Shown here: piece after piece, positions 26,247 to 46,391 of the stretch
Layout: each line of letters starts with the position of its first letter
How positions within the stretch are numbered: position 1 is the stretch's first letter
Source of the DNA: Treponema sp.
GTDB lineage: Bacteria > Spirochaetota > Spirochaetia > Treponematales > Breznakiellaceae
Direction: 5' to 3'
Assembly (NCBI GenBank): GCA_031266095.1
Contig: JAISBR010000107.1
Span: 1 to 47,213, forward strand
Length of the DNA stretch: 47,213 bases
The notes under the pieces: model-generated
What the model was told of the DNA's origin: nothing
Seen by the model: only the letters and a program-made list of their open reading frames with translations
Databases searched by the model: none
Program-made: the position numbers and the translations under genes

Positions 26247-26822
26247 TTATACCAACACGCAGCCCACATAGGTCAGAGTGTTGGGGCCGTAGTAATAGGG
26301 CAGGTTGTTTGCCTTGCAGACATCGCTGACCACCATGCCCATGGCTTCCATAGACGTGAACATCGTATCCGGAAAACGGCAGGGTGAATCGGGGTAGGCG
26401 CAGCGCTCGCAGTTTTTGCAGGCGCCGTTGCCCAGGATCATATAAACCGGCGGAGCGCCCGTCTCCGGGGCGGAATACATGGCCCTGAGCGCTTCCTGAA
26501 AAGCCCGCAGATGTTTCCTGTGCTCCGCTGCAATTCGGGTCATCATCTCATAATCCAGGGAATCTTCCAGTATGCCGGAGGTTTGGAGAATAAACCCGCC
26601 ATCATATCGCCGAATCCGCTGTTCGCACGCTTCCAGGCTGCCGCACGCGGGAGGGCAGGACCAGTTTTTCCCATAGGAATTGCATTTGTCCGCAGCGCAG
26701 GCGTCCCGTACTTCCGGCCGTATCCGTATGGTATCCGTCCGCAGTTCCCCCACATGGGTAAAACCGCAGCCCAGGGCCAGTTCCCTGAGCCGGGATACAA
26801 CTGGGACGCTCTCAGTTGCCAA
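26247..26822 (-). CDS. DUF2284 metal-binding protein
   Basis: The 191-residue protein is cysteine rich: C-A-A-D-K-C, N-W-S-C-P-P-A-C-G, then G-A-C-K-N-C-E-R-C-A-Y-P-D-S-P-C-R-F-P and a final Y-Y-Y-G-P-N-T-L-T-Y-V-G-C. These are the signature blocks of DUF2284, predicted to bind metal or an iron-sulfur cluster. I chose the TTG at 26822 because CTTTCAGGAG lies eight bases before it and the preceding gene stops 8 bases inside it. An ATG at 26867 lies within that gene. The overlap couples it to the methyltransferase, suggesting it serves the same corrinoid chemistry. Confidence 0.85.
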   Translation of the reverse strand: MATESVPVVSRLRELALGCGFTHVGELRTDTIRIRPEVRDACAADKCNSYGKNWSCPPACGSLEACEQRIRRYDGGFILQTSGILEDSLDYEMMTRIAAEHRKHLRAFQEALRAMYSAPETGAPPVYMILGNGACKNCERCAYPDSPCRFPDTMFTSMEAMGMVVSDVCKANNLPYYYGPNTLTYVGCVLV

Positions 26823-27609
26823 AAAGACCACTCCTGAAAGCGTTGATGTATTCAAGGCAGAATTCATCCTGTCCCAGCAGGGCCTCGGCGGCGTAGAGCA
26901 GGCCCATCATGTCTTTGTTGAGCGGGTCCAGAATGGCGCTGTCCATACCGGCGTTCATCGCCAGTATGATAAAGGCCCTGTTGATGTATTTACGGGCCGG
27001 TAGGTTAAAGGAAATATTACTGGCCCCGCCGGTAACATGAATGTCAGGGTACTGCTCCTTCACTTTTTTGATGGTGGCGACAACCTTGGCTATCCCATCT
27101 TCCGAGGCGCAGAGCATCTCAATCAGCGGATCGATATGGAGCCGCTTGGGGGAAATTGTATATTCGGCGGCTTTTTCCATTATAAAGTCAAAAACCTCAA
27201 GCCGCCGTTCCACGGTCTGGGGGATTCCCTTGTCATCCGACAAAAGGGCCACACATTCCCATTCTGAACCGGAGATTGCCGGGAATATCAGCTCGATTTT
27301 GTTGCTCTCACCAGACACGGAATTGATAAGCCCCGGTTTCTTGCAGAGCCGGATCGCCTCGGCGCATACCTTGGCGCTGGGACTGTCTATGCAGATGGGG
27401 GTGTCGGTGACATCTTGTACCAGACTGATGAGCCATTGCAGGATTTCCAGTTCCTCTTCTTCAGGAACCGACGCGCAGACATCCAAAAAATGCGCTCCCG
27501 CTTCGGTCTGCTTTTTCGCCAAATCGCGGATATACGCCTCGTTTTTTTCTGAGATCGCCTTTGCCATGGACGGAATCGAACCATTAAGTTTTTCCCCGAT
27601 TATAATCAT
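26812..27609 (-). CDS. Methyltetrahydrofolate:corrinoid methyltransferase
   Basis: The 265-residue pterin-binding TIM-barrel protein has I-I-I-G-E-K-L-N-G-S-I at the start, then A-G-A-H-F-L-D-V-C-A-S and I-C-I-D-S-P, L-I-N-S-V-S-G-E, and T-G-G-A-S-N-I-S-F-N. This is the layout of AcsE, MtgA and MtrH-type enzymes that move a methyl group between tetrahydrofolate and a corrinoid protein. It lacks the rest of MetH. The ATG at 27609 has GAGG eight bases upstream; an ATG at 27642 is less likely. No corrinoid protein gene is in the window, so its partner is encoded elsewhere. The DUF2284 gene overlaps its end. Confidence 0.9.
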   Translation of the reverse strand: MIIIGEKLNGSIPSMAKAISEKNEAYIRDLAKKQTEAGAHFLDVCASVPEEEELEILQWLISLVQDVTDTPICIDSPSAKVCAEAIRLCKKPGLINSVSGESNKIELIFPAISGSEWECVALLSDDKGIPQTVERRLEVFDFIMEKAAEYTISPKRLHIDPLIEMLCASEDGIAKVVATIKKVKEQYPDIHVTGGASNISFNLPARKYINRAFIILAMNAGMDSAILDPLNKDMMGLLYAAEALLGQDEFCLEYINAFRSGLFGN

Positions 27610-27861
27610 TTGGTGTACCTCAAAAGGAGTAATCATTAACACTTCGTGTTAATGTCAGATTAACGTAAGCGGCGATACCGCCGCTTTTATATATGAAGTA
27701 TAAATATAAAATAATCGGTATACAAGTGGGCGCATTACCTCACGAAAAATGTTACCGAAAAACGCTATGGCCCGGATGTGACGACCGGTATCATATGGCT
27801 GGGGGGATTTTTTCAGGGGTATGTGCGGGAAATGCCTGGTACCTCGTAACAACAAATACTT

Positions 27862-33792: not shown

Positions 33793-34881
33793 TTACGCGC
33801 GAGGCGCGGTAAAGTCCCCTCGGGCGGGCTTTCCTGTTTTAAGCAGGGTTTCGATAAACCGGACCGTTTCCCGGCCTTCCTCGCCGGTTGCGGCCGGGAG
33901 GCGGTCGTCCTGAATGGCACCGCAGAAATCATCAATCTGACAGGTAAAAAAGAACACCGTGGGGTTAATGGTCTTGAAGAAAGCCTCGTCCTCCGCCCTG
34001 AATATATCGAGCTTGTCTTTTTCCCCTTCAATGGTCCAGATGTCGTTGAGGGGCGGCTCCGTGATAGTGCTCATCCCCGCGATAAACATAGCGCCCCCGT
34101 CGGTCTGAACCCCGGCGGACCAGGCCGCGTCGCCGTGAATATGGACCTTGGCGTAGATGCCGGGTTTTTGAGCGTTACTCACCAGTACCGAGCCTATGCC
34201 GCCGTTTATAAAACGTACCGCCGCCACGGCGCTGTCCTCGACTTCGATATAGGGATGGTTGAAGTTATCCCAGAAACCCTGTATTTCGCCAAAAGGCCCC
34301 ATGTACCACTGCAGCAGGTCAATCTGATGGGGAGCCTGATTGATAAGAATCCCGCCCCCTTCGGTGGCCCATTTGCCCCGCCAGGGATCGCTGTCATAGT
34401 AGGCTTTGTCCCGCCAGCCTAAAATAGTAAGCTGGGCCAGGACCGGCTTTCCCAGTTTGCCTTCGTCAATCGCCGCCTTGATACGAGCGCAGGCCGGAAA
34501 CCAGCGGCGCTGGCACACCACCGAAAGAATCTTGCCCGTGTGTTTCGCGGCCGCGATCATTTCATCACATTCCGTCACAGTGAGCGCCATGGGCTTTTCC
34601 ACCAATACGTGCGCCCCCGCCGCAAAGGCCGCCAGGCTGCCTTCCCGGTGCTGGGGATGGGGCGTAGTAACGATAACGGCGTCCACCTTGTCCTTCTCAA
34701 CCATCTCCGCTACGGTTTCCCTCGAGGCGATATTCCACTTTTCGGCAAAAGCGTCCCGCCTCGTCGCGTTCCGTCCGCACACCGAAACCAAGAGGCCTCT
34801 GATTGAACCGACCAGCGCTTCCGCGTGCAGGTTAGCCACTTTGCCGTATCCGATAAGGCCTATTTTCACTTTGTCTTTCAT
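33793..34881 (-). CDS. Gfo/Idh/MocA oxidoreductase A
   Basis: The 362-residue NAD(P)-dependent enzyme has an N-terminal Rossmann fold (I-G-L-I-G-Y-G-K-V-A-N-L-H). The family motif E-K-P-M-A-L-T-V-T-E-C-D is near residue 95, and the C-terminal barrel includes G-G-I-L-I-N-Q-A-P-H-Q-I-D-L-L-Q-W. Relatives oxidise or reduce sugars, inositols and amino-sugars. It overlaps the alcohol dehydrogenase gene by four bases (ATGA), so the two are translationally coupled. It ends the leftward unit of the UroD-sugar locus. It is a paralogue of the enzyme at 43108, with low similarity. Confidence 0.9.
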   Translation of the reverse strand: MKDKVKIGLIGYGKVANLHAEALVGSIRGLLVSVCGRNATRRDAFAEKWNIASRETVAEMVEKDKVDAVIVTTPHPQHREGSLAAFAAGAHVLVEKPMALTVTECDEMIAAAKHTGKILSVVCQRRWFPACARIKAAIDEGKLGKPVLAQLTILGWRDKAYYDSDPWRGKWATEGGGILINQAPHQIDLLQWYMGPFGEIQGFWDNFNHPYIEVEDSAVAAVRFINGGIGSVLVSNAQKPGIYAKVHIHGDAAWSAGVQTDGGAMFIAGMSTITEPPLNDIWTIEGEKDKLDIFRAEDEAFFKTINPTVFFFTCQIDDFCGAIQDDRLPAATGEEGRETVRFIETLLKTGKPARGDFTAPRA

Positions 34882-35912
34882 GGGATGAGTACCACCTTGA
34901 GCAGATTATCTTCCCGATTATAGAGTTTGTCAAACCAGATCTGTCCTTCCGAAAGCGGCGCTTTTTTGCTGATCAGGGATTCCACGTCGATCTTCTTCCG
35001 GGCGATAAGATCGAGAACCAGGGGGTATTCCCCGGCAATGGCGCAGGAGCCGAAAAGGCTTATCTGGCGGGTAACCACGCTCTGGAGGGGGAGTTCTATC
35101 TTCGGGCTTATGTTTCCGATGAGGGTGACTGAGCCGCCCTTGCGCACTATGGAAAGGGCTGTTTGTATGGGAGAGGTGGCGCCCACCGCCTCAAAGACCC
35201 GGTCAACCCCGCGGCCCGCAGTCAGTTCCCGTATTTTTTGGGTAAGCTCCGGGTCGGCCGGATCAAAGATCGCGTCCGCGCCCCGCCCGCAGGCGGTCTC
35301 CCGCCGGGACGGGTCGGTATCCAGGGCGATGATCTTCCCCGCTGTCGCGGCTTTGAGCACGTCAAACAGGAGAAGGCCGATAAGCCCGGTACCCACCACC
35401 GCCACGGTTTCGTTGAAGCCCACCGGGGTAATGCGGAAGGCGTGGGAAGCGACGCCGGCCGGCTCGGTCATGGCCGCTTCCCCGTAGGATATGCCGGCCG
35501 GCAGATGACAGCAGATATGCTCCGGAACCACCACGTATTCGGCAAAGGCGCCATGCCGCCGGTATTCGTCACAAGAAACCCCCAGAACCATCCGATCATC
35601 GCAGAGGTTGACCTGACCGTTTCGGCAGTAAAAACAGCGGCCGCAATAAATAGTGGAATCAAAGGTGATCCGGTCCCGGACTTTGAAGCCCGTCACCCCT
35701 TTGCCCACCGCGGCAATTTCCCCGGCGGCCTCGTGCCCCATGATGACAGGCGGCTTGCGCCGGCCCGTGGAACCGTCAAAGCCATGGACATCGGAACCGC
35801 AGATCGCGGCCGCTTTGACCTTCACCAGAATATCATGCTCTCCCTCAATCCGCGGATCCGGCACATCGGTATAGTGCAATTTTTTATATTCTTCCATCAG
35901 CAATGCTTTCAT
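34878..35912 (-). CDS. Zinc-dependent alcohol/polyol dehydrogenase
   Basis: The 344-residue medium-chain dehydrogenase keeps the catalytic zinc ligands A-I-C-G-S-D-V-H-G (Cys38) and G-H-E-A-A-G-E (63-69). The structural-zinc motif C-G-R-C-F-Y-C-R-N-G-Q-V-N-L-C has four cysteines. The NAD-binding V-V-G-T-G-L-I-G-L-L loop is present. It is of the sorbitol or L-threonine dehydrogenase type and probably oxidises a sugar alcohol or cyclitol. The next gene upstream is separated by the three-hairpin repeat at 35935. The Gfo/Idh gene overlaps its end. Confidence 0.92.
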   Translation of the reverse strand: MKALLMEEYKKLHYTDVPDPRIEGEHDILVKVKAAAICGSDVHGFDGSTGRRKPPVIMGHEAAGEIAAVGKGVTGFKVRDRITFDSTIYCGRCFYCRNGQVNLCDDRMVLGVSCDEYRRHGAFAEYVVVPEHICCHLPAGISYGEAAMTEPAGVASHAFRITPVGFNETVAVVGTGLIGLLLFDVLKAATAGKIIALDTDPSRRETACGRGADAIFDPADPELTQKIRELTAGRGVDRVFEAVGATSPIQTALSIVRKGGSVTLIGNISPKIELPLQSVVTRQISLFGSCAIAGEYPLVLDLIARKKIDVESLISKKAPLSEGQIWFDKLYNREDNLLKVVLIP

Positions 35913-35934
35913 ACGGCAGCAACTCCTTTTACCT

Positions 35935-36074
35935 GAGCTTGTTCCAAAACTAATTGACTATGCGCTAAAGCACATGGTTTTGGAACAAGCTCTTGCGGTT
36001 TTTCGGCCTATGGCCTACAAAACCGCGGTTTTTAAAGGAAGCTGTTCCAAAAACTGAAGTTTTGGAACAGCCTC
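35935..36074 (-). repeat. Three-hairpin repeat inside an operon
   Basis: This is a complete copy in opposite orientation to 27862-28000, and matches 1-119 almost base for base. It lies between two same-strand genes, touching the stop codon of the UroD gene (36073-36075) and ending 22 bases before the alcohol dehydrogenase ATG. It can therefore affect transcript processing or dosage between these genes. Confidence 0.93.
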
Positions 36075-37110
36075 ATCTGTAAATCCTGACCGCTTCGTCA
36101 AAGAGCGCGTGAATATTCCGGGGCGATACATCCGGCAAAATCGCCTCGTGACTGGGGGAAATGATGAGGCCGGTCGGGAAAATATCCCTCAGTTCCCGTA
36201 CTTTGGCGCGTACCAGTTCAGGATCATCCTGAACCAAAAGCTGCTGGGCGTCTACCCCGCCGCAGAACGCGACCTGGTCTCCGTAGCGCTTTTTCAGATT
36301 ACACGGCTCCATACCGGCGGCCAGGGCCTGTATCGGATGAATCACATCAACCCCGGCGGCGATTAAATCCGGAATAATGTCCGCGATGGAACCGCAGGAA
36401 TGGTAGATCACCTTTTTCCCGTAATGGTGGGCCTGTTCAACCAGGGCGCGGCAGCCGGGCATGACAAAGCGGCGGATCAGTTCAGGAGAAAGCATAAGGC
36501 CCCGCTGGGTTCCCATGTCGTTGCCGATGAGGACGGCGTGGAATTTATCCCCCGCGATTTTATAAAACATATCGTTAACCGCGAGATAAAAATTGAGGAT
36601 CCTGTTGTTGACCGCTTCCACCACTTCGGGGTTGGCGATCATATTCATCAGCGCGGTTTGCAGGCCAAAGGAAGCGCAAGTGTCCTGAAAGTGAACCGAC
36701 CAGAGCAGGCCCAGGCCTGTTTTCCCTTTGGGAACACGGGCGCCCATTTCCCTGAGGTCTTCAGCCTCTACGCATTTTGCCGGATCGGGCCATTTGAAAA
36801 AATCGATGTCCTCCGGCTCTTCACAGTTCTTAAAACAGCCGTCGGCGGTGAGGGTTCGATCCTTCCGGTCGGTAACACCGTCAAGGTACCAGTCCCACAC
36901 CCGGGCGGCTCTCTTTCCGTTCCAGCGGAGGGGAATCCTCTCGCCGTAAAAATCATCGCCCACGGCTATTCTAAGCTCATTCAGATTACGTACGCCGTAT
37001 TCCGCAAAGAGTCCCGGTTCCGCGTTTTCATCGGGGACACCGAGCCATGTTGCCGGGCGATCAACCGGCTCACGCGCGACAGTAGCGTAAAAACGATCAA
37101 CGGAATTCAT
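36073..37110 (-). CDS. UroD-fold protein A (methyltransferase-like)
   Basis: The 345-residue protein has the uroporphyrinogen-decarboxylase TIM-barrel fold. It lacks the N-terminal decarboxylase motif R-x-P-V-W-x-M-R, so it is not HemE. Y-H-S-C-G-S (His237, Cys239) resembles the H-x-C zinc motif of MtaA/MtbA-type corrinoid methyltransferases. The third ligand position reads S-P-S-H-E-A-I-L (His321) where those enzymes have a cysteine. Similar proteins occur in sugar-type transport loci with no known reaction. It precedes the alcohol dehydrogenase and follows the aldo/keto reductase by five bases. Family firm; activity unknown. Confidence 0.85.
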   Translation of the reverse strand: MNSVDRFYATVAREPVDRPATWLGVPDENAEPGLFAEYGVRNLNELRIAVGDDFYGERIPLRWNGKRAARVWDWYLDGVTDRKDRTLTADGCFKNCEEPEDIDFFKWPDPAKCVEAEDLREMGARVPKGKTGLGLLWSVHFQDTCASFGLQTALMNMIANPEVVEAVNNRILNFYLAVNDMFYKIAGDKFHAVLIGNDMGTQRGLMLSPELIRRFVMPGCRALVEQAHHYGKKVIYHSCGSIADIIPDLIAAGVDVIHPIQALAAGMEPCNLKKRYGDQVAFCGGVDAQQLLVQDDPELVRAKVRELRDIFPTGLIISPSHEAILPDVSPRNIHALFDEAVRIYR

Positions 37111-37115
37111 GGCGG

Positions 37116-38165
37116 CTAGAAGATTCTCCTTTCCTGGGAGTTCTCGTAATAATCAGGGTTGTTTCCCAGCTTATCGAGAACCTGCAGACTTGCTTCGTCT
37201 ATTTGCGCTTTGACTTCGGCGGGCAGCGTTATAGAAAGGCATCTGATATTTTCCTCAAGCTCGGCGATATTCCGTGAGCCGATCAGCGCGCAGCCGATTC
37301 GGGGATTCGCGAGCACCCAGGCGGCCGAAAGCTGGGCAACCGAAAGCCCCAGTTCCGGCGCGATTTTTCTCAATAAATCAACTGTCTCAAAGACTTCGGC
37401 TTCCGCGCCCGCCTCGTTGTGCCGGGAGGTTCCCTTGCCGGCTTCCATGGAGAAGTGCCGGGAGTGGGCCTGGTGCGGCGGGACCTCGGCGGCGCTTTGG
37501 TAAAGTCCGGTAAGAACGCCCTGCTGGAGGGTCATAGATGTAATAACCGCGATTTTATGCTCCGTACAGAAGGGAATTATCTCCGCCTCAATGGCGCGGG
37601 AGATGATATTATAGGGCAGTTCATTGGCGGCAATGTCGGGGCAGCAGGCCGCCGCTTCGGTAATCTGTTGTACACCGAAATTGCTGACGCCGATATGGCG
37701 TATCTTACCCTCTTTTTTCAGGGCGGCAAGGGTCTCAAAGGCTTCCGCGGCGGTTGGCGGGTTTTTGACAACCTCGGGATCATTGGTAAAATGCTCGATA
37801 CCCTTGGGGTTAATGGGCCAGTGGAGCATATACATATCGATATAATCCGTAGCGAGACCCTTGAGGGAAGCTTCACATTCTTCCCGCAGGCTCTCGCGGT
37901 AGGCCCTGGCGGGGCTGATTTTGGATATGACGAAGGCTTTATCCCGGTATCCCTTGAGGGCCTTACCCAGGGAGATCTCGCTGGCTCCGTCGTTGTACAT
38001 GCGGGCGGTGTCAAAAACATTGAGGCCCCGTTCAATGGCGGCACGCACTATGCCGTCCACATCTTTTTGATTCTGATCTCCCCAATAAGCGCCGCCGCCA
38101 AAAGGCCAGCAGCCTATGCCTATTCTGCTTAACAAAAGTCCGGGGTGTACTGTTTCCTGCAGCAT
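37116..38165 (-). CDS. Aldo/keto reductase
   Basis: The 349-residue NADPH-dependent barrel enzyme has the catalytic set F-D-T-A-R-M-Y (Asp and Tyr), V-I-S-K-I (Lys) and M-L-H-W-P (His). The cofactor-binding end reads C-A-L-I-G-S-R-N-I-A-E-L-E-E-N. It reduces or oxidises carbonyl groups of sugars or polyols. It lies five bases from UroD-fold protein A and 25 bases from UroD-fold protein B. This places a redox step between the two methyltransferase-like proteins. Confidence 0.92.
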   Translation of the reverse strand: MLQETVHPGLLLSRIGIGCWPFGGGAYWGDQNQKDVDGIVRAAIERGLNVFDTARMYNDGASEISLGKALKGYRDKAFVISKISPARAYRESLREECEASLKGLATDYIDMYMLHWPINPKGIEHFTNDPEVVKNPPTAAEAFETLAALKKEGKIRHIGVSNFGVQQITEAAACCPDIAANELPYNIISRAIEAEIIPFCTEHKIAVITSMTLQQGVLTGLYQSAAEVPPHQAHSRHFSMEAGKGTSRHNEAGAEAEVFETVDLLRKIAPELGLSVAQLSAAWVLANPRIGCALIGSRNIAELEENIRCLSITLPAEVKAQIDEASLQVLDKLGNNPDYYENSQERRIF

Positions 38166-38190
38166 TTGTTTTCCTTCTTACTGTGAGGTG

Positions 38191-39249
38191 TTATTCGCAA
38201 GCGGCTTCCATCATAGCCGTTATGTTCTCAATCGGCACATTAGGTAGAAGCGTTTCATGGCTGGCGCAGACAATATAGTTGGGACCCAGGCATTTTTTTA
38301 CCCGCCTGACTTCGGCCTTTACTTCTTCCGGGGTACAGGAGGGCAGTATCCGCTGGGTGTCGATTCCGCCCATAAAGGCGACTCTGCCGCCGTACTGTTC
38401 GGCAAGGCTTGCGGCATCCATGTTTTTTGCCAGCGCCTGCAGAGGGTGCAACATCTCCACACCGGCTTCGATAAGCTGGGGAATTACCCGGTAAATAGAA
38501 CCGCAGGAATGCAGGGTGGTATGTAATCCGTAGCTTTGGGCCTGAGAAATGAGCTTTTTTATAAAGGGCAGCAAAAATTCCTCAAAGGTTTTGGGAGAAA
38601 CAAGAAGATCAAGTTGGGAACCAAGATCGATTCCGATAAATATGGAATCGATTTTATCCGCCGCAAGGGAAAAAAGCGTTTCGTTAGCCGCAAGATAAAA
38701 GTCCGTAAGATGCCCGGTTACCGCCTTGACAATATCCGGTTCGCTCATCATTTTGACCATGCAGTTTTCCATGCCGAAAAAATTCCAGGTATTGCTGAAA
38801 ATACTGCCCCAGGTGCTGCACAGTACCGCCTGGCCCGTTTCCACGGTACGGTCTATTTCCCTGACGGTTTCGCTAAAGTCGCAGTCGTCAATGGTGGGCC
38901 AATGATAGCGGTGTATCTCTTCCAGGTCCTCGCAGTCCGCAAAAACCGCCTCTCCGTGTGTTATGGTTCCGTACCCGAAACCTGAACTTTGCAGGACAGC
39001 GTTTTTATTTGCCGCCTGATTAAAGGGATCAAACATGGGATAATCGGTACGCCGCCATAGACGGCAGTCCTCTTCGGGCCGCACATAACGGCAGATTGAG
39101 CCCATCTTAAGCCCCAGTTCAAAATCATCCTTGACACCGAAGTGGGCGTACAGTTTTCCGGTTGCGTCCGCATGGGGTACGCCGTGCCAGAAACCGCAAT
39201 GTTCGCCCTGCCTGTTGATTATCTTTGTGAAATGCTCTTTGCCGGTCAT
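38191..39249 (-). CDS. UroD-fold protein B (methyltransferase-like)
   Basis: The 352-residue protein starts at ATG 39249, five bases after AGGAG; a GTG at 39255 is less likely. It shares the UroD barrel with protein A. The H-S-C-G-S motif is at residues ~247-251 and the A-S-H-E-T-L-L-P-N-V-P element near 330. It also shows G-I-D-L-G-S-Q-L-D-L-L-V-S-P, parallel to G-N-D-M-G-T-Q-R-G-L-M-L-S-P in protein A, so the two are ancient paralogues. It follows the permease genes with a gap of 15 bases. The reaction is not known; a methyl or carboxyl transfer on an imported substrate is plausible. Confidence 0.85.
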   Translation of the reverse strand: MTGKEHFTKIINRQGEHCGFWHGVPHADATGKLYAHFGVKDDFELGLKMGSICRYVRPEEDCRLWRRTDYPMFDPFNQAANKNAVLQSSGFGYGTITHGEAVFADCEDLEEIHRYHWPTIDDCDFSETVREIDRTVETGQAVLCSTWGSIFSNTWNFFGMENCMVKMMSEPDIVKAVTGHLTDFYLAANETLFSLAADKIDSIFIGIDLGSQLDLLVSPKTFEEFLLPFIKKLISQAQSYGLHTTLHSCGSIYRVIPQLIEAGVEMLHPLQALAKNMDAASLAEQYGGRVAFMGGIDTQRILPSCTPEEVKAEVRRVKKCLGPNYIVCASHETLLPNVPIENITAMMEAACE

Positions 39250-39264
39250 ACCCACTCCTGTATG

Positions 39265-40131
39265 CTAGCCTTTTATGCCGGTGTTTATCAGTCCGGTTTT
39301 TATATTCGAATTAAAAACGATGAAGATGATAAGCAGCGGGATGATGCTGATCGTCACTGCGGCGCAGACTTCGCCCCAATATTTAATGAGATCGGTTACA
39401 AAACGATTCAACGAAAGGGTGACGGTCCTCATCCGCTCTTCGGTTACAATAAGGAGGGGCCAGAAAAAGTCGTTCCAGGTCCAGACCGATTTTATAACCA
39501 TGAAGGTTACAATGTGGGACTGTACCATGGGAACGATAATCTTCCTGAAAATCCAGAACTCACCGGCGCCGTCGATCCTGCCGGCCTCAATGTACGATTT
39601 GGGGATTGGCTCCATGGCCGCCCGCAGGAGGAAGGTCCCGAAAGCCGACATAAACGAAGGAACCATAAGGCCGGGATAGGTATTCACCAGGCGCAGTTTC
39701 GACACGATGAGGAAGAGGGGAATTGAGGTCATCTCGGTCGGTATCATCAACATCCCCAGAAAAAGGTAATAGAAAATCTCCTTTCCCGGAAACTGAAATT
39801 TCGCGAAACTGTAGGCCGCGGTAAGGGCCAGTACCAGGCTGGGAACCATGGTGATCAGCACCACGACAAAGGAATTTAAAACAGCCCGGTACAGAGGGAA
39901 GCCGTTCTGCGTCACCGTCTTTCCCATAAACACGTTTTTGATGTTGTCGAAATTGGAAAACGAATCCGGAACAATCCGGTGGAACATATTCCGGTTCGGC
40001 ATATCAATAATTTCAGGATTTGACTTTAACGCCGTAAAAAGGATCATCACAAAGGGAACAATAATAAAAGCAAAAAATACAATCATCAGCGGCCAGGTAA
40101 TCAGCATTCCCCAATTATGTTTCTTTTTCAT
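39265..40131 (-). CDS. Sugar ABC transporter permease (MalG type)
   Basis: The 288-residue inner-membrane protein has six membrane helices. The cytoplasmic EAA motif is E-A-G-R-I-D-G-A-G-E-F-W-I-F-R-K-I-I-V-P. It belongs to the carbohydrate-uptake-1 class and forms the channel together with the adjacent permease. A GGGG ribosome site precedes the ATG. No ABC ATPase gene is in this locus, so a shared MsmX-like ATPase encoded elsewhere is expected. Confidence 0.94.
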   Translation of the reverse strand: MKKKHNWGMLITWPLMIVFFAFIIVPFVMILFTALKSNPEIIDMPNRNMFHRIVPDSFSNFDNIKNVFMGKTVTQNGFPLYRAVLNSFVVVLITMVPSLVLALTAAYSFAKFQFPGKEIFYYLFLGMLMIPTEMTSIPLFLIVSKLRLVNTYPGLMVPSFMSAFGTFLLRAAMEPIPKSYIEAGRIDGAGEFWIFRKIIVPMVQSHIVTFMVIKSVWTWNDFFWPLLIVTEERMRTVTLSLNRFVTDLIKYWGEVCAAVTISIIPLLIIFIVFNSNIKTGLINTGIKG

Positions 40132-40139
40132 AAGCGCCC

Positions 40140-41018
40140 CTAATATTCCACAACCCGCTTGAGCAGGGTCTGCTGCAAGACGCTGATGGCAAACAGAAAA
40201 AGGAGCGCCAATACAGTGATCGCCGAAGCCATACCGTAGTTTTCTATGAACACATTAACGATAAGGTAGATCATCACCGTCCTCGTGGCCCCGCCCGGTC
40301 CGCCCATGGTGGCCGAGTAGATCTGATCAAAAGCCCTGAAGGCGAATATCATGTCCAGCGTCAGGGAAAGCACAAGCTGAGGATTTATCAGCGGCAGGGT
40401 CAGCCGGAAAAAACGCTGGAAGGGATTTACGCCGTCCAGTTCCGCCGCCTCGTATAGTTCTTCCGGCACATTTCGCATACCGCCATAGAGGATCATGATG
40501 CTGAAAGGGCACCTGATCCAGATGGTGATAATAACCGTTGCAACAAGCGCAGTCTCGGAACTTCGCAGCCATCCGGGGGGCTTGGCCATTCCCAGAAATT
40601 GCAGGATGGTGTTTATGATTCCGAAATTGGGATCAAAGACCCAGTCCCAGATGATGCCGGCGCTGACCATGGCGACCATGAAAGGGAGAAAGATGATGGT
40701 GGTAGAGATCGCGGAAGCCCGGGACTTCATCTGGGATACCGTGTTGGCTACCCACAGACAGATAATCATCAGTGCCGGTGTCAGCATAATAACATACTGA
40801 AAGGTCACCTGAATTGAGCGGATAAAATCCGCGCGCCTGAAAAGATTGATGTAGTTTCTCAGCCCGTTGAAGGTCCATGAACCCATGATCAAATTGACTC
40901 TGCCAAAGGAATTGACGAAGCACAGAAGCAGGGGATAAAAAAATATGCAAATATACACAATCAGAGAAGGTAAAAGAAAAAGGGCCCCCGCCACACTGTA
41001 TTTTTGTTGGATCTTCAC
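40140..41018 (-). CDS. Sugar ABC transporter permease (MalF/UgpA type)
   Basis: The 292-residue permease has six membrane helices and the EAA loop E-A-A-E-L-D-G-V-N-P-F-Q-R-F-F-R-L-T-L-P. The start is a GTG at 41018 behind GGGAG. It lies nine bases from the second permease. A terminator-like hairpin at 41048-41078 separates it from the solute-binding gene, which would lower permease expression relative to the binding protein. Confidence 0.94.
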   Translation of the reverse strand: MKIQQKYSVAGALFLLPSLIVYICIFFYPLLLCFVNSFGRVNLIMGSWTFNGLRNYINLFRRADFIRSIQVTFQYVIMLTPALMIICLWVANTVSQMKSRASAISTTIIFLPFMVAMVSAGIIWDWVFDPNFGIINTILQFLGMAKPPGWLRSSETALVATVIITIWIRCPFSIMILYGGMRNVPEELYEAAELDGVNPFQRFFRLTLPLINPQLVLSLTLDMIFAFRAFDQIYSATMGGPGGATRTVMIYLIVNVFIENYGMASAITVLALLFLFAISVLQQTLLKRVVEY

Positions 41019-41040
41019 TCGTGTCTCCCATCAAAATGAA

Positions 41041-41079
41041 AACAAAAGGCGGATAAGATCACCCGATACTTATCCGCCT
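41041..41079 (-). terminator. Attenuator hairpin between binding protein and permeases
   Basis: On the minus strand AGGCGGATAAG and CTTATCCGCCT pair perfectly (11 bp) around an 11-base loop and are followed by TTTTGTT. It begins nine bases after the binding-protein stop. Such hairpins commonly give partial termination, so that the binding protein is made in excess of the membrane proteins. Confidence 0.85.
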
Positions 41080-41087
41080 GAGTTATA

Positions 41088-42401
41088 TTAGCGCTCGTCC
41101 AGTATGGTTTGCATTCTCTGTGCCGCAGAGTCGATGGTTGTTTTTACATCCCTTCCCTCAATAACAGCGGTAACCGCGTCACCGATTATTTCAGATAAAG
41201 AATTCCATTGAGGTATAATGTAATAAACGGGTCCCACGGTCTTGGTTACCGATTCCAACATCGCCTCGGCGTAGGGGAGGCTCCTGAAGTAGGGATTGTC
41301 CATTTTGACGGTTGTAGTCAGCACCGGCGGAGTTTTGTCTTTTTCATGCATCCGCACATCGTACACGGGATTGACCAGTTCTTTGTACAACTGAAGGAGC
41401 AGATCAACATGCGGGGATTTTGAATTGATCATCATATGCCAGGAACCGCCGCCTAAGGTAACAAGGTCTCTTGATCCGGCCGGATAGGGGAAGATCTTAA
41501 ATTGCAGGCTGGGGTTGATGGTGGCAACCTGGTTCGCGTAGAAAGGCTCGCGGAAGGTCATTGAGCAGAGTCCCTGCTGGAAAGCCACGTCGGGAAGGCC
41601 CAGTTCGACATTGGTCACCTTGTCAACAAAGACCAAGTCATGGAGGAATTGGAAAGCCCTCATGGTTTCGGGGCCGTTCATAAAACCTTCAGCCTTTTTG
41701 AAATCCGGGGAAAGAACGCGGCCGCCGAGGTTGTGGATGATAGGCATATATTTCGCCGCCACGTTGAAAGAACCGCCGCCAAAGCGGGGCTGGAAGCCGG
41801 CGCGGACAACATTGCCGGCGGCGTCGTATTTGGTCAGCTTCTTGGCCACCGCCCGGAATTCTTCAAGGGTTTTGGGATAATCTCTGTCCGGGTCAAGACC
41901 CGCTTCCCTGAAATGGTCGGTGTTGATATAGAGGTACATCAGTGTATCGCCGGCCACGGGGAAGCCGTAGTATTTGCCGTTGAACACGCCGTCTTCTTTG
42001 TAGATGTTACCCAGGGCGTCCTGCCAGATCTTGGTGATGTCCGCGGGGATGGGCAGGGCAACGGGGTTCGCGCCGCCGTCAAGGGCAAAGTCATTAGCCA
42101 ATGCCATGAACATGTCCGGGCCGGTACCGCTTTGGAAGGCGGACACATATTTCGCGAGATAGCCCTGGTACTCAACCTGCTCCGATACCATGGTGACATT
42201 AGGGTAGCCCAGCTTGGCGCAAATCTCGGTGGCGATCCTGGCAAATTCATTGAAGTTATTCACCGCCTGTAGTTGATGATGCCAAAAAACCAGCCTGACC
42301 GGAGTATCTTTCGGGGTTCCGCTTCCCCCCTGCCGCCCGCCTGCAAACAGGGGCGACAAGCCCAAAAGTACCACCAGGAGTACGATCAATGTTTTCTTCA
42401 T
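41088..42401 (-). CDS. Sugar-type extracellular solute-binding protein
   Basis: The 437-residue exported protein starts at ATG 42401, preceded by GGAGG. The longer upstream open frame is leader sequence. The signal peptide M-K-K-T-L-I-V-L-L-V-V-L-L-G-L-S-P-L-F-A is followed by G-G-R-Q-G-G, as is common in spirochaete binding proteins. The body is SBP_bac_1 type (F-Q-S-G-T-G-P-D-M-F, then G-F-P-V-A-G-D-T-L-M-Y-L-Y-I-N). It captures the substrate in the periplasm for the two permeases. It is the first gene of the leftward unit. Confidence 0.93.
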   Translation of the reverse strand: MKKTLIVLLVVLLGLSPLFAGGRQGGSGTPKDTPVRLVFWHHQLQAVNNFNEFARIATEICAKLGYPNVTMVSEQVEYQGYLAKYVSAFQSGTGPDMFMALANDFALDGGANPVALPIPADITKIWQDALGNIYKEDGVFNGKYYGFPVAGDTLMYLYINTDHFREAGLDPDRDYPKTLEEFRAVAKKLTKYDAAGNVVRAGFQPRFGGGSFNVAAKYMPIIHNLGGRVLSPDFKKAEGFMNGPETMRAFQFLHDLVFVDKVTNVELGLPDVAFQQGLCSMTFREPFYANQVATINPSLQFKIFPYPAGSRDLVTLGGGSWHMMINSKSPHVDLLLQLYKELVNPVYDVRMHEKDKTPPVLTTTVKMDNPYFRSLPYAEAMLESVTKTVGPVYYIIPQWNSLSEIIGDAVTAVIEGRDVKTTIDSAAQRMQTILDER

Positions 42402-42425
42402 AATAATCCTCCGTTCAAAATAAGA

Positions 42426-42448
42426 TATACTACATAATGAGTAGTATA
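42426..42448. promoter_or_regulatory. Perfect inverted repeat before the binding-protein gene
   Basis: TATACTAC and GTAGTATA are separated by ATAATGA. The repeat is in the transcribed leader, about 25 bases before the ATG and close to the ribosome site. It can act as an operator for the regulator at 45309 or as an RNA hairpin. Confidence 0.6.
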
Positions 42449-42453
42449 CATGT

Positions 42454-42491
42454 TCACTTATTGAAAAATTCCCGGTTTTTTCGTTAAGTGA
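42454..42491 (-). promoter_or_regulatory. 5'-terminal stem-loop of the binding-protein mRNA
   Basis: TCACTTA/TAAGTGA and GAAAAA/TTTTTC pair in one 15-bp stem with a two-base internal mismatch and a loop around CCCGG. The predicted transcript start (~42494) puts this hairpin at the extreme 5' end, where it would protect the mRNA from decay. Confidence 0.6.
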
Positions 42492-42500
42492 TAAAGGATG

Positions 42501-42530
42501 ATTATACCCCCCTATTGAAATATCTGTCAA
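42501..42530 (-). promoter_or_regulatory. Strong sigma-70 promoter of the leftward unit
   Basis: On the minus strand a consensus TTGACA (42530-42525) and a consensus TATAAT (42506-42501) are separated by 18 bases. It drives the binding protein, permeases and downstream enzymes. Confidence 0.85.
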
Positions 42531-42558
42531 ATAAAATTTAAGGATTCTCAAAAATAGC

Positions 42559-42587
42559 TTGACAAACTTATTTTTCATTGGTATTAT
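42559..42587 (+). promoter_or_regulatory. Sigma-70 promoter of the rightward unit
   Basis: TTGACA (42559-42564) and TATTAT (42582-42587) are 17 bases apart, about 45 bases before the HIT gene. An imperfect inverted repeat TGTTTA (42593) / TAAACA (42611) overlaps the predicted start and may be an operator. The divergent promoter lies 29 bases away, so one bound regulator could control both. Confidence 0.8.
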
Positions 42588-42631
42588 AGACATGTTTATA
42601 TACATTCTTGTAAACAGATGGAGGTTATACA

Positions 42632-43060
42632 GTGGATACTTGTTTTTATTGCGAAAAAGATGAACGCCTGGATAAGCTGATGATCAAAATCACCGAACTT
42701 CCCCGGTCGATTGTGTATCTCAACCGGAATCAGAATCATAAAGGCCGTTGTATTGTCGCTTTTAAGGAACACCGGACCGAATATTTTCACTTGTCGCCGG
42801 AGGAGAACGCCGGTTTCTTTGCCGACGTAAGCCTGACCGCCCAGGCTCTGACCACTGTTTTCAATCCCGGCAAGATCAACTACGCGACTTTCGGCGATCT
42901 CGTTCCCCACGTCCATTTCCATGTTGTCCCCAAATATCCGGGCGGCCTCCAGTGGGGAAAGTTCTTTGAGGATGAACCAAAACTGTTCCTGACTGAGGAC
43001 GAATACCAGGAGAGGATTCACCGGATCAAAGCGGAATTGGACCGGCTTGGGGCAAAATAG
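42632..43060 (+). CDS. HIT-family nucleotide hydrolase/transferase
   Basis: The 142-residue protein has the histidine-triad motif H-V-H-F-H-V-V-P-K and an N-terminal zinc-type pair C-F-Y-C. HIT proteins act on nucleoside phosphoesters, as hydrolases or transferases (Fhit, HINT, GalT relatives). The start is a GTG at 42632 with GATGGAGG upstream. It is the first gene of the rightward unit and an uncommon partner in a sugar locus. It could release or transfer a nucleotide group, or be a stress or repair enzyme with no direct link. Confidence 0.92.
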   Translation: MDTCFYCEKDERLDKLMIKITELPRSIVYLNRNQNHKGRCIVAFKEHRTEYFHLSPEENAGFFADVSLTAQALTTVFNPGKINYATFGDLVPHVHFHVVPKYPGGLQWGKFFEDEPKLFLTEDEYQERIHRIKAELDRLGAK

Positions 43061-43107
43061 CTGCCGCCAGGCTAAAATCGCCGGACAGGTAATTTTTGGA
43101 GGTTAGT

Positions 43108-44127
43108 ATGCCCGAAGCGCGGCAAAGCACCGGCTTAAAGCCCTTAAAAACCGTGCTGATCGGCGGCGGTGAGCGGGCCAGGACGGCGATTTATCCTGCT
43201 TTTGACCATCTCAGGCAGCAGGGAACCGTTGAAATTGCCGGTATCTGTCACACCAACGCCGAAAGACGGGAGGAATTCGCCGGACGGTACAGGCCGGGAA
43301 GGTCCTACGGCGCGGGCGGAGTACACGATTATAAAAGGATGCTTGAAGAGCTTAAACCTGAGGCCGCCGTGGTCGTCGGTCATCCGAATATCATGTACGA
43401 CTGCTGGATCCGGTGCCTGGAACAGGGCCTGCATCTTTTTATTGAAAAACCCCTGGGCCTCAGCATACATCAGGCCCGCGCCTTGGCCGCCCTGGCGGGG
43501 CGGAATAAACGGGTAACCCAGGTCGCCTTCCAGCGGCGCTACAGCCCCATGGTAACAAAGCTGCGTGAAGAGTGCCTCAAACGCGGCAAAATGACCCAGG
43601 CGCTCTGCAAGTTTTACAAGAGCGAACCCTGCGATAATTTCCGCGCCAGGGATCACATGATGGATGACACGGTTCACGCCATAGATACGCTTCGCTGGAT
43701 GGCCGGCTCCGAAATAGTCAAAGTGGACAGTGTCACCGGCCGGATTGGCACGGTGGATATAAACCTCATCACCGCCCAGTTCAGTTTCGCCAACGGTTGC
43801 GTGGGGCACCTTTTGAACAACTGGAGTTCAGGGAAGCGTATATTCGCGGTGGAAATGCACGCGCCGGGGATCTTTGTCGAAGCCGAGCATGAGGGAAAAG
43901 GTTATATGTACACCGATGGGAACCTCAAGCCCCTTGTTTTTGACGCCGCGGAGTCCGCGGGAAGCGGTGAGTTGTATATATATACCGGAGTTCTCGCCGC
44001 TGCCGAAGACTTTGTGAACTGCTGCCTCAGGGGCGGAGAGCCTGCCTGTTCTTTCGGCAATTCGGTCAATACGATGAAGATCGCGGAAGTGATCCTGGCG
44101 CAGTCCTTGCTGCGGGAAGGATTATAG
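43108..44127 (+). CDS. Gfo/Idh/MocA oxidoreductase B
   Basis: The 339-residue dehydrogenase has an N-terminal Rossmann fold (V-L-I-G-G-G-E-R-A-R-T-A-I). The family motif F-I-E-K-P-L-G-L-S-I-H-Q-A is near residue 110, and the typical H-M-M-D-D-T-V-H-A-I-D-T-L-R-W lies in the barrel. The start at 43108 follows GGAGG; an upstream TTG is inside that site. The substrate is unknown. It sits between the HIT gene and UroD-fold protein C in the rightward unit, paralogous to the enzyme at 33793. Two such enzymes in one locus suggest two oxidation or reduction steps on a ring. Confidence 0.9.
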   Translation: MPEARQSTGLKPLKTVLIGGGERARTAIYPAFDHLRQQGTVEIAGICHTNAERREEFAGRYRPGRSYGAGGVHDYKRMLEELKPEAAVVVGHPNIMYDCWIRCLEQGLHLFIEKPLGLSIHQARALAALAGRNKRVTQVAFQRRYSPMVTKLREECLKRGKMTQALCKFYKSEPCDNFRARDHMMDDTVHAIDTLRWMAGSEIVKVDSVTGRIGTVDINLITAQFSFANGCVGHLLNNWSSGKRIFAVEMHAPGIFVEAEHEGKGYMYTDGNLKPLVFDAAESAGSGELYIYTGVLAAAEDFVNCCLRGGEPACSFGNSVNTMKIAEVILAQSLLREGL

Positions 44128-44193
44128 GGAACGGAAACGCCGCTTTGCGGTCCGCAAGGTAAAAATCGCCTGGCAGGCGGTTTGGGAGGTTTT

Positions 44194-45300
44194 ATGCGCG
44201 AAACGTGGCACGCAGCCGGGGAAACGCGGGATACCGGGGCCAAGGCCCGCTCTGAAGAGCATACAAAATTCTGGAACCATGAGGAAACCGCGAAACCATT
44301 GGCGTCCTTCCGCATAGGGAACTATTTTTTCGCCACCCATTACAAAGCCGCCCGGAAACTCCTGGTTAAGGGACAGAAAATAAGCCCTGCTATGCTTGAT
44401 GTGGATTCATTTTTAGAAGACTACGAAGAACAGTACGCCGCTGTCAGCGCCCTTAACCAGAGCGGCTTCTGGACGGCCGAGCCGTACACGGGTATACCCT
44501 GGATGGAAGCCTTCTGGGGCTGCGAGATCATTGCCGGCGAGGAAAGTTTTATGGCCCGGCCGCTGGTAACGGAAGCGCGGGACCTTGAAAAGCTGCAATT
44601 CAGCATGGACAATCCCTGGGTCGACAAGTATTTCGAATTTGTAACCAAGCTGAATAAGCTGTCACAGGGACGCTTCCCCATAGGAGCGCCTATCATGCGG
44701 GGACAGGGCGATACGGCGGGCGCCCTGATGGGACAGACAGCATTTATCTATGCCCTGTACGAAGAGCCTGAGATAATCAAAAAAACCCTCGGTAAAATCG
44801 TGGATTCTTTTCTGCGCATATATCAGGAGATGCACCGGCTGAACGCGCCCTTCCTGGGCGGCAGTTCCATGGGACTGTACCATGTGTGGGCGCCGGGGGA
44901 AAGCCTCTGGTTTCAGGACGATATAGGCGCCCTGCTGTCGCCCCCGCTCTATCGTGAATTCCTCCTGGAAAATGAAAAGCGCTTCTGCGCCGGGTACCGT
45001 TACACGATGATGCATCTGCATCCCTCATCTTTTCATCTGTTGGATGCTATATTAAGTAACCAGTACCTTAAAGCCGTTGAAATAAACAAAGACGTGGGAG
45101 GGCCTTCCATAACGCAGATGCTGCCCCAGTTCAGGAAAGTGCTTGAACAGGGCCGGTGTCTTATCATTTGGGGCGATCTGACGGAAGCGGAAATACGAAT
45201 TGTATTTGACCATCTGCCGCCCAGGGGGATCTTTTTTAATATACTGCTGCCGGACTTTGATCAGGCTGAAAGAATAAATGCTTTTTTAAATGTTCTGTGA
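44194..45300 (+). CDS. UroD-fold protein C (divergent, no H-x-C motif)
   Basis: The 368-residue protein is a distant UroD-family member. I chose ATG 44194, after GGGAGG; a TTG at 44182 overlaps the site. Core blocks include G-Q-G-D-T-A-G-A-L-M-G, L-S-P-P-L-Y-R-E-F-L-L and G-R-C-L-I-I-W-G-D-L-T. Where A and B carry H-S-C-G-S, this protein has M-M-H-L-H-P-S-S, so the zinc cysteine is absent. It may use a different metal site or be a non-catalytic partner. The gene ends on the first bases of the regulator frame. Confidence 0.75.
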   Translation: MRETWHAAGETRDTGAKARSEEHTKFWNHEETAKPLASFRIGNYFFATHYKAARKLLVKGQKISPAMLDVDSFLEDYEEQYAAVSALNQSGFWTAEPYTGIPWMEAFWGCEIIAGEESFMARPLVTEARDLEKLQFSMDNPWVDKYFEFVTKLNKLSQGRFPIGAPIMRGQGDTAGALMGQTAFIYALYEEPEIIKKTLGKIVDSFLRIYQEMHRLNAPFLGGSSMGLYHVWAPGESLWFQDDIGALLSPPLYREFLLENEKRFCAGYRYTMMHLHPSSFHLLDAILSNQYLKAVEINKDVGGPSITQMLPQFRKVLEQGRCLIIWGDLTEAEIRIVFDHLPPRGIFFNILLPDFDQAERINAFLNVL

Positions 45301-45308
45301 GACACCAT

Positions 45309-46391
45309 ATGATAACAGAAAAGATAAAACATAAACCGGTCTACCGGCAAATCTACAGCGTATTGGTTTCGGAGCTGGACAAGGGGCTTTACGACGAGAG
45401 CGGAATGCTCCCCAGCGAGAAGGAACTCTGCGGCCGTTTCGGGGTGGAACGAAATACGATCCGTAAATCACTGCAGCTCTTGGTTGACGACAAGCGGGTG
45501 ATCCGCCGGCCCGGCCTGGGGACCGAGCTGGTAAAACCGAAGAAAGAAGCGGACATGGATACCGCGGGCGCCCCGGTACTGCTCATTACCCAGGTGGATT
45601 ACCTGAATACGGGCAAGGGTGAGAGTTTTCACTATAAACTGATCAACAGTCTGGGTAAGCGGCTCTGGGAATCGGGCTGCAACATGCTCTTCAAACCCGT
45701 TTACAAGCCCGAGGATTTTTCCGGGCTTATCTACGGCGTCTCGCCCAGGGGCATTATCTTTGACAGTTATAACCGGAACGATTATTACCTCAAGATGATT
45801 AAAACCGGCCTCCCCACGCTTTCCCTCAACCAGTATACTCCCCTGATGACCAGTATTGTGAGCGGCAATTTTAACGGCGCTTACGATGTGGTACGGCGGC
45901 TCTTTCGCGCGGGACACCGGCGCATTGCCTTTATCCTTGGCAAACCCAGTTACAATTCCTGTAAGGAACGGCTCAGCGGCGTCAGGCGGTTCTACACCGA
46001 ACAGGATATAGAACTCGGCGCCGAGTATCTTTTTAACGGAGACTGGCTTTTCAGTTCCGGTGTTGAAGCGGCCTCCCATATCCTCGGCATGGAAAAAGAA
46101 AAACGTCCCACCGCGGTTTTTGCCTTCAATGATGATATGGCGTACGGCTGTTACAGCGCGCTTGTCCGCAACGGCCTTTCGCTGCCCGCGGACATGAGCA
46201 TCGTCGGATTTGACAATACCGACCGCTACGCCGACGTGTTCCCCCAGATTAGCACCGTGGATGTCAATCTTTCGGCCTTAGTGCACTATGCGGTCTGGTA
46301 TCTTACGGAAACCTTCGCGGGAAGGGCGCCCAAAAACGCGGCCCGGATAGAGATTCCCACTACATTCTGCGCCAGGGGAACCATAGCGTAA
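45309..46391 (+). CDS. GntR-LacI hybrid transcriptional regulator (AraR-like)
   Basis: The ~360-residue repressor-type protein has an N-terminal GntR winged helix (L-P-S-E-K-E-L-C-G-R-F-G-V-E-R-N-T-I-R-K-S-L-Q). A LacI-type periplasmic-binding domain follows (G-H-R-R-I-A-F-I-L-G, then F-A-F-N-D-D-M-A-Y-G and S-I-V-G-F-D-N-T-D). This is the layout of AraR, which senses a sugar. The ATG at 45309 was preferred over a GTG at 45297 that overlaps the previous stop. It is the last gene of the rightward unit. The inverted repeats at 42426 and 42593 are candidate sites for it. Confidence 0.92.
   Translation: MITEKIKHKPVYRQIYSVLVSELDKGLYDESGMLPSEKELCGRFGVERNTIRKSLQLLVDDKRVIRRPGLGTELVKPKKEADMDTAGAPVLLITQVDYLNTGKGESFHYKLINSLGKRLWESGCNMLFKPVYKPEDFSGLIYGVSPRGIIFDSYNRNDYYLKMIKTGLPTLSLNQYTPLMTSIVSGNFNGAYDVVRRLFRAGHRRIAFILGKPSYNSCKERLSGVRRFYTEQDIELGAEYLFNGDWLFSSGVEAASHILGMEKEKRPTAVFAFNDDMAYGCYSALVRNGLSLPADMSIVGFDNTDRYADVFPQISTVDVNLSALVHYAVWYLTETFAGRAPKNAARIEIPTTFCARGTIA

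Follow-up and report, generated by a model that had tools for sequence, protein, structure and literature searches.

A divergent Treponema locus joining UroD-superfamily proteins to carbohydrate oxidoreductases: a possible O-demethylation system with a corrinoid partner encoded elsewhere

Contig JAISBR010000107.1 of Treponema sp. (assembly GCA_031266095.1) was analysed over 47,213 nucleotides of the forward strand; this whole stretch is referred to as the window. The locus studied covers positions 33793..46391 and comprises twelve genes in two divergent arms, three of which encode UroD-fold proteins, here designated UroA, UroB and UroC. The genes are listed by coordinate.

33793..34881, minus strand: GfoA, Gfo/Idh/MocA oxidoreductase (PF01408/PF22725/PF02894)
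34878..35912, minus strand: MDR, zinc-binding dehydrogenase (PF08240/PF00107)
36073..37110, minus strand: UroA, UroD-superfamily protein with H237-x-C239 and E322 (PF01208)
37116..38165, minus strand: AKR, aldo/keto reductase (PF00248)
38191..39255, minus strand: UroB, UroD-superfamily protein whose clade is sister to that of UroA (PF01208)
39265..40131, minus strand: Perm2, ATP-binding cassette (ABC) permease 2 (PF00528)
40140..41018, minus strand: Perm1, ABC permease 1 (PF00528)
41088..42401, minus strand: SBP, solute-binding lipoprotein with sugar-binding relatives in the PDB (PF01547/PF13416)
42632..43060, plus strand: HIT-domain protein (PF01230, 38.1 bits)
43096..44127, plus strand: GfoB, second Gfo/Idh/MocA oxidoreductase (PF01408)
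44182..45300, plus strand: UroC, UroD-fold protein with HLHP replacing HxC (assigned by structure model and fold)
45297..46391, plus strand: Reg, regulator with GntR DNA-binding and LacI-type sensor domains (PF00392, PF13377)

The minus arm reads SBP, Perm1, Perm2, UroB, AKR, UroA, MDR, GfoA and the plus arm HIT, GfoB, UroC, Reg. The spacing is operon-like, with overlaps of 4 bp between MDR and GfoA as well as between UroC and Reg, and a gap of 5 bp between AKR and UroA. Domain scans confirmed the gene set given for both arms in a preliminary description of the window.

Based on fold and ligand motifs, UroA and UroB are probably methyltransferases. The structure model of UroA (pLDDT 84) matches UroD and MtaA structures. 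When UroB was aligned with MtaA (4ay7) using phmmer, its HSC aligned with HIC and the glutamate of its SHE motif with an MtaA Cys, which we take to be a zinc ligand. Both proteins carry the HxC motif together with a Glu at the putative third ligand position. HSCG and SxSHE were found in 120 of 120 listed UroA homologues (2990 homologues at E ≤ 0.001 among 7994 scored), HSCG in 120 and SHE in 119 of 120 listed UroB homologues (the exception is a short protein), and SHE also in all 13 UroB genes of treponeme-family genomes. UroA and UroB form sister clades with a support of 99/98 in a tree of 32 proteins, which includes no characterised MTI. The best NCBIfam matches of the UroD proteins are MtaA-type methyltransferase models, all below threshold (UroB 68.8 bits, cut-off 244). 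The HemE equivalog cut-off of 302.95 is not reached, with UroB at 18.9 bits and UroA and UroC not listed at E ≤ 0.001. Single and profile sequence searches of UroA and UroC against the PDB yielded nothing useful. A carboxylate is reported in O-methyltransferases of the UroD superfamily at the third-ligand position that is otherwise Cys (PMC10418091), and some members of the superfamily contain no zinc (PMC13222342).

The locus is conserved in relatives. All twelve genes occur in the same order and orientation in Treponema sp. Cd354_bin93 (L003, 78–90% identity, GfoA truncated by the end of the stretch). They are also all present in genome G001, divided between two contigs (L076, L001), and eleven of them in G002 (L077, L002), in which SBP was not seen. 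Partial sets are found in G005 (UroB-AKR-UroA-MDR-GfoA), G004 (UroB-UroA-AKR-MDR) and G793 (Perm1-Perm2-UroB-UroA-AKR). The preliminary description would have given up its proposal if the gene order were not conserved elsewhere; since it is conserved, that objection falls away. UroB was detected in 13 of 195 treponeme-family genomes (E ≤ 1e-75) and, at E ≤ 1e-50, in 4 genomes of a phylum-wide sample of 392, counting its centre. UroA was detected in 14 of 250 Lachnospiraceae genomes (E ≤ 1e-100). The distribution of the UroB locus is thus narrow and that of UroA relatives broad.

A rearranged form of the locus is present in MS502-68 (L006, 66–88% identity, HIT 47%); GfoB and Reg are absent from this stretch. 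The order on one strand is SBP-Perm1-Perm2-UroB-AKR-UroA-RbsD/FucU protein-corrinoid protein-MDR-UroC-GfoA. Downstream on that strand lie genes of the acetyl-CoA-pathway type, two of the CdhD family (of which the second has an Fe-S domain) and one for a pterin-binding methyltransferase, and then the gene for the mannonate dehydratase UxuA. The corrinoid protein, encoded at L006:8255-8887, features both B12-binding domains (PF02310/PF02607) and the motif GDLHDIG. Its gene lies inside the operon, so that the window looks like a split gene set. The absence of a corrinoid protein, which the preliminary description had emphasised, is therefore true of the window but finds little support as a defining trait. 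The methyl transfer that it had suggested for UroA and UroB gains support as a likely role from the corrinoid protein and CdhD-family genes of MS502-68.

Genome-wide co-occurrence points in the same direction. A corrinoid protein of the L006 type (E ≤ 1e-60) was found in 7 of the 13 UroB genomes compared to 30 of 182 others (p 0.0037, relatedness ignored). CdhD-family genes exceed the cut-off in 10 of these 13 genomes. RACo occurs in all 13, taken as stand-ins for the genome of the window, the UroB-free background not being measured; RACo also serves the acetyl-CoA pathway. The 250 Lachnospiraceae genomes were compared using cut-offs picked after the tables had been seen and a query from a UroA genome: a corrinoid protein matching that of locus L102 was found at E ≤ 1e-59 in 14 of 14 genomes with UroA versus 31 of 236 without, and at E ≤ 1e-100 in 11 of 14 versus 11 of 236 (Fisher 4.7e-11). 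A corrinoid gene lies within 6 kb of UroA, with RACo adjoining, at two of 18 Lachnospiraceae loci (L102 and L103), compared to 0.12 expected (P 0.007, distance picked afterwards). The protein encoded at G191:C8:91338-91982 and its relatives form a subtype of corrinoid protein whose occurrence in Lachnospiraceae follows that of UroA.

The oxidoreductases fit a carbohydrate setting. The nearest solved chains to GfoA are 3q2i (9.5e-36), 3q2k and, third, the glucuronide-3-dehydrogenase 8tdi (2.5e-26); it is also related to DgpA (7xr9, 3.6e-21), presumably a glycoside oxidase. Against the IolG model GfoA scores 113.7 bits, below the equivalog cut-off of 355, and the best NCBIfam match of MDR is scyllo-inosose 3-dehydrogenase (IolM) with 215.7 bits, below the cut-off of 450. 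The sugar or polyol setting assumed in the preliminary description is supported by UxuA in the MS502-68 operon and by two IolG genes above the cut-off in a second locus of G793. UxuA hints at uronates and IolG at cyclitols, neither of which fixes the substrate of the window locus; 4-O-methylglucuronate or an O-methyl inositol are weak guesses.

Taken together, we propose that the locus imports an O-methylated sugar, uronate or polyol/cyclitol, that this compound is oxidised in an NAD-dependent manner, and that UroA and/or UroB move its methyl group to a corrinoid protein encoded elsewhere, an interpretation to which we give about even chances. The ABC importer would take up the O-methylated carbohydrate, and one of the Gfo/Idh proteins or MDR would oxidise the hydroxyl beside the methoxy carbon. 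Once the ketone so formed takes its enediol form, the oxygen of the methoxy group would leave more readily, akin to the phenolate that leaves in aryl O-demethylases. UroA and/or UroB would pass the methyl group to Co(I) of the corrinoid protein, which RACo would keep active; the two could act as MT1 and MT2, or both as MT1 for two substrates. The remaining reductases would turn the ketone back into an ordinary sugar, and in acetogenic relatives the methyl group would enter the methyltetrahydrofolate/acetyl-CoA pathway. Oxidation as the first step would explain why four oxidoreductases share the locus with two methyltransferase-type proteins. The cleavage of sugar methyl ethers by the UroD superfamily is, like the prior oxidation, a proposal made here.

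Several observations weigh against this proposal. Neither a corrinoid nor a RACo gene was found in the 47-kb window, and the presence of both in the genome of the window organism is assumed. Among the examined treponeme loci, a corrinoid gene accompanies UroA and UroB in MS502-68 only. Six of the 13 UroB genomes have no L006-type corrinoid protein; in two of these six, G593 and G789, stand-alone corrinoid proteins of other types are present. No stand-alone corrinoid protein was detected in the remaining four, all drafts: G004 and G005 have none at E ≤ 1e-20, G728 has none, and the sole match in G750 sits inside a 1300-residue frame. The co-occurrence tests take no account of relatedness or genome completeness. 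In Lachnospiraceae, a corrinoid gene is missing from the vicinity of 16 of the 18 UroA loci, AKR, MDR and GfoA were not found by BLAST at any of the 18, and 9 of the 14 UroA-bearing genomes have no AcsE-type methyltransferase. Lastly, a 413-residue protein family from related loci, read by eye as UroD-like, is matched by no Pfam or NCBIfam model, and this candidate assignment was rejected.

The preliminary description had pointed to a methyltransferase outside the locus in connection with a possible hand-over to folate. This gene and its neighbour are:

26812..27642, minus strand: AcsE/MtrH-type methyltransferase with pterin binding (PF00809; PRK07535 356.4 bits, cut-off 259)
26247..26867, minus strand: DUF2284 protein (PF10050)

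The methyltransferase lies about 6 kb from the locus and is 73% identical to a copy beside a corrinoid gene in L067. No synteny with the locus was seen, and copies in relatives go with a corrinoid protein, DUF2284 and RACo, as in L175, a generic methyltransferase/corrinoid/RACo cluster with the order methyltransferase-corrinoid-DUF2284-RACo. Membership in the operon was therefore rejected; a role as partner of the locus is possible. In the window, positions 26247-27642 place the methyltransferase beside DUF2284 without the intervening corrinoid gene of L175 and L189. A strict association of UroA with an AcsE-type enzyme was likewise rejected, with 5 of 14 UroA-bearing Lachnospiraceae having one compared to 19 of 236 others (p 0.006). 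Hand-over to tetrahydrofolate, also suggested earlier, thus finds little support as a general rule, and the methyl acceptor may differ in the Lachnospiraceae that lack the enzyme. Judging from the operon, transfer to tetrahydrofolate would be well placed in MS502-68.

Of the alternatives, UroA and UroB could be lyases, isomerases or decarboxylases acting on an oxidised sugar, the corrinoid gene of MS502-68 being adjacent by chance. We regard this as unlikely, since HxC and Glu are maintained across both homologue lists, UroA strongly co-occurs genome-wide with a corrinoid subtype, and neither protein resembles HemE in score.

Quite unlikely is a substrate in which a methoxylated aromatic forms the aglycone of a glycoside, as in lignin-type glucosides; the Gfo/Idh pair would open the glycoside via a keto-sugar and UroA and UroB would demethylate the aglycone. 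The relationship of GfoA to DgpA would fit, as would the action of UroD-superfamily O-demethylases on methoxylated aromatics (PMC13222342). However, the UroD proteins of the L175 cluster fall outside the UroA/UroB clade, no aromatic-ring gene was found among the scanned genes of the locus or L006, and in relatives the presence of UxuA, RbsD/FucU and IolG nearby speaks for plain carbohydrates. An ordinary sugar locus whose UroD proteins have a methyl-sulfur/selenium or methionine-type role, as in type 1 mlp clusters, is very improbable: the sub-threshold MtaA-type matches speak for it, but the third ligand is Glu, whereas mlp proteins nearly always have His-Cys-Cys (PMC10418091), and none of the twelve genes is a sulfur or selenium gene.

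The structure model of UroC also matches UroD and MtaA structures. The protein has an HLHP or HQHP motif in place of HxC and no Cys ligand, and H278, H280, N302 and D304 are invariant in 25 aligned sequences. UroC is thus probably not a methyltransferase akin to UroA and UroB; a ligand-binding role or another UroD-fold activity linked to regulation is probable. UroC could act as a sensor and relay the presence of the substrate to GntR-type regulators, leaving the enzymatic work to UroA and UroB, which is compatible with the proposed demethylation and which we consider a reasonable possibility, somewhat short of even. A motif test over 34 loci showed UroC fused to a GntR-type region in 5; in 7 others, 3 of which are orthologues of the window locus, a GntR-type gene lies no more than 300 bp away. 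PF00392 was found on 8 of 120 listed UroC homologues. Against a sensor, the motif test gave neither a fusion nor an adjacent gene in 22 of these loci, FCD and LacI-type regulators possess their own ligand domain, and the fully conserved polar site resembles that of an enzyme.

Proteins of about 605 residues that join a UroC-type domain to a GntR-FCD transcription factor were observed in L010, L014, L015, L016 and L018 (P0194, P0201, P0213, P0215, P0217, P0220, P0238 and P0240); this may be a new sensor or enzyme-regulator fusion. A general tie of UroC to corrinoid proteins was rejected, corrinoid genes being present in only 6 of 36 UroC loci, two of which belong to one genome with 35 corrinoid-domain matches. 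The same 36 loci, which have flanks of unequal length, contain other UroD proteins in 7 cases and an AcsE-type gene in 3; UroA, UroB and UroC share one stretch only in L003 and L006. Outside the clade of the window, many UroC loci lie near genes that we read from their sequences as split transketolase pairs, 3-hydroxyisobutyrate-dehydrogenase-like proteins, TRAP transporters and GntR regulators. In Peptococcaceae CEB3 (G016, 35 corrinoid-domain matches; L017, L021), UroC stands beside several UroD proteins, corrinoid genes and apparent sugar-acid genes. Among 35 pattern matches in viral contigs, no relative of UroC was found.

The region between the arms contains a promoter and two operator-like sites. 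SBP has a lipoprotein-type start (MKKTLIV...LFAGG) at 42401, and the mechanical open reading frame, which begins at 42605, seems too long at its 5' end, so that the gap between the arms is 230 bp. The features are:

42559..42587, plus strand: sigma-70-type promoter TTGACA-N17-TATTAT, preceding the HIT-GfoB-UroC-Reg arm
42445..42456, binding-protein side: operator-like palindrome TATACATGTTCA, ACATGT core at 42448
42587..42598, immediately 3' of the -10 box: operator-like palindrome TAGACATGTTTA, ACATGT core at 42590

The promoter is the sole site of its kind in the 47-kb window, and an equivalent one precedes HIT in L001, L002 and L003. Two of the four ACATGT copies in the 47 kb lie in this region. 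The same pair occurs in L003, L001 and L002 have the operator-like site together with the promoter before HIT, and L076 has one ACATGT core at 163, near its SBP start. With one mismatch allowed, the palindrome pattern has 6 matches in the window compared to 1.68 expected, a number reached in 2 of 100 shuffles. An extra, unexplained copy at 205 in L001 does not fit the pattern, and no operator-like site was found before SBP or HIT in the rearranged MS502-68 locus. The locus is probably under the control of Reg.

Related gene sets were seen elsewhere in the family. Besides its Perm-UroB-UroA-AKR locus, G793 carries the second locus L188 (G793:C138, 3791-14881), with an AcsE-type methyltransferase 72% identical to that of the window, a corrinoid protein, two isomerase-type TIM barrels, two IolG above the cut-off (447 and 380.6, cut-off 355) and a third Gfo/Idh protein. 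From this content, L188 could serve the use of O-methyl inositols. L069 (G001:C241, 7448-11708) encodes a corrinoid protein, a TIM-barrel isomerase and a URO-D protein that scores 60.7 bits against a cut-off of 23.9; an unassigned 400-residue protein is also present, and the neighbouring genes read as sugar-transporter genes. Proteins of about 360–460 residues without Pfam or NCBIfam match are encoded at L188:5756-7126, L188:9544-10620, L122:15706-16947 and L071:6739-8019, and recur next to UroA, UroB or corrinoid genes. The 413-residue family (40–42%) adjoins UroB in G593 and a UroA paralogue in L071/L072, with two copies in L188. In Leadbettera azotonutricia (G593, L122, 9815-19901), a UroB orthologue was observed with a LacI-GntR-like regulator, permeases, a binding protein, two further URO-D proteins above the cut-off, one protein of the matchless family and the start of an apparent alpha-mannosidase. 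A 435-residue protein, likewise without Pfam or NCBIfam match, lies between UroB and a UroA paralogue in L140 (5692-6999) and L139.

The locus is best filed with the UroD-superfamily corrinoid methyltransferase systems, as a variant placed among genes for carbohydrate oxidation, its corrinoid partner and its substrate being putative. The three-component O-demethylase/haloalkane systems (MtvB, OdmB, VdmB, CdmB) consist of MTI, a corrinoid protein, MTII and an activating enzyme. The UroD-fold MTI candidates, RACo in the 13 UroB genomes, the MS502-68 corrinoid protein and the nearby AcsE-type enzyme resemble these systems. In contrast to them, no corrinoid gene stands beside UroA and UroB in the window, the unit includes a sugar ABC importer, two Gfo/Idh proteins, MDR and AKR, and UroA and UroB form their own clade in the tree, which lacks characterised MTIs. 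With the soluble coenzyme M methyltransferases MtaA/MtbA, UroA and UroB share the fold, the HxC motif and an aligned third ligand position, but Glu replaces Cys and all NCBIfam cut-offs are missed. The Gfo/Idh and IolM-like MDR classes, and the sister locus with two IolG and a corrinoid protein, recall inositol catabolism, but GfoA and MDR fall well short of the cut-offs for IolG and IolM and no other inositol-pathway gene is among the twelve. Type 1 mlp clusters (Kountz and Balskus, PMC10418091) are similar in having several UroD-superfamily proteins and no folate methyltransferase in the cluster, but they feature their own corrinoid protein and Ram/RACE, a His-Cys-Cys site and sulfur/selenium neighbours; the window cluster has Glu at the third position and neither a corrinoid protein nor Ram/RACE.

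Neither the anaerobic removal of methyl groups from methylated sugars nor this locus was found described in the open literature searched, most subscription papers being outside its coverage. Hardwood xylan and plant cyclitols are rich in methyl groups. A wider proposal, which we regard as doubtful, is an oxidation-activated anaerobic O-demethylation of carbohydrates, in which NAD-dependent dehydrogenases would first produce a keto-sugar, UroA/UroB would cut its enediol methyl ether, and methyl groups from O-methylated plant sugars (xylan 4-O-methylglucuronate or O-methyl inositols) would pass via a corrinoid protein into the acetogenesis of spirochaetes whose habitat we take to be of the termite-gut type. 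In this scheme UroC would serve as a sensor domain with UroD fold, of a kind that other bacteria have joined to transcription factors. Through UroC, a connection of the UroD fold with gene regulation also becomes open to experiment. If the proposed demethylation is true, many proteins labelled 'uroporphyrinogen decarboxylase' would gain a testable role, and acetogenic spirochaetes would have a one-carbon source besides CO2 and aryl ethers.

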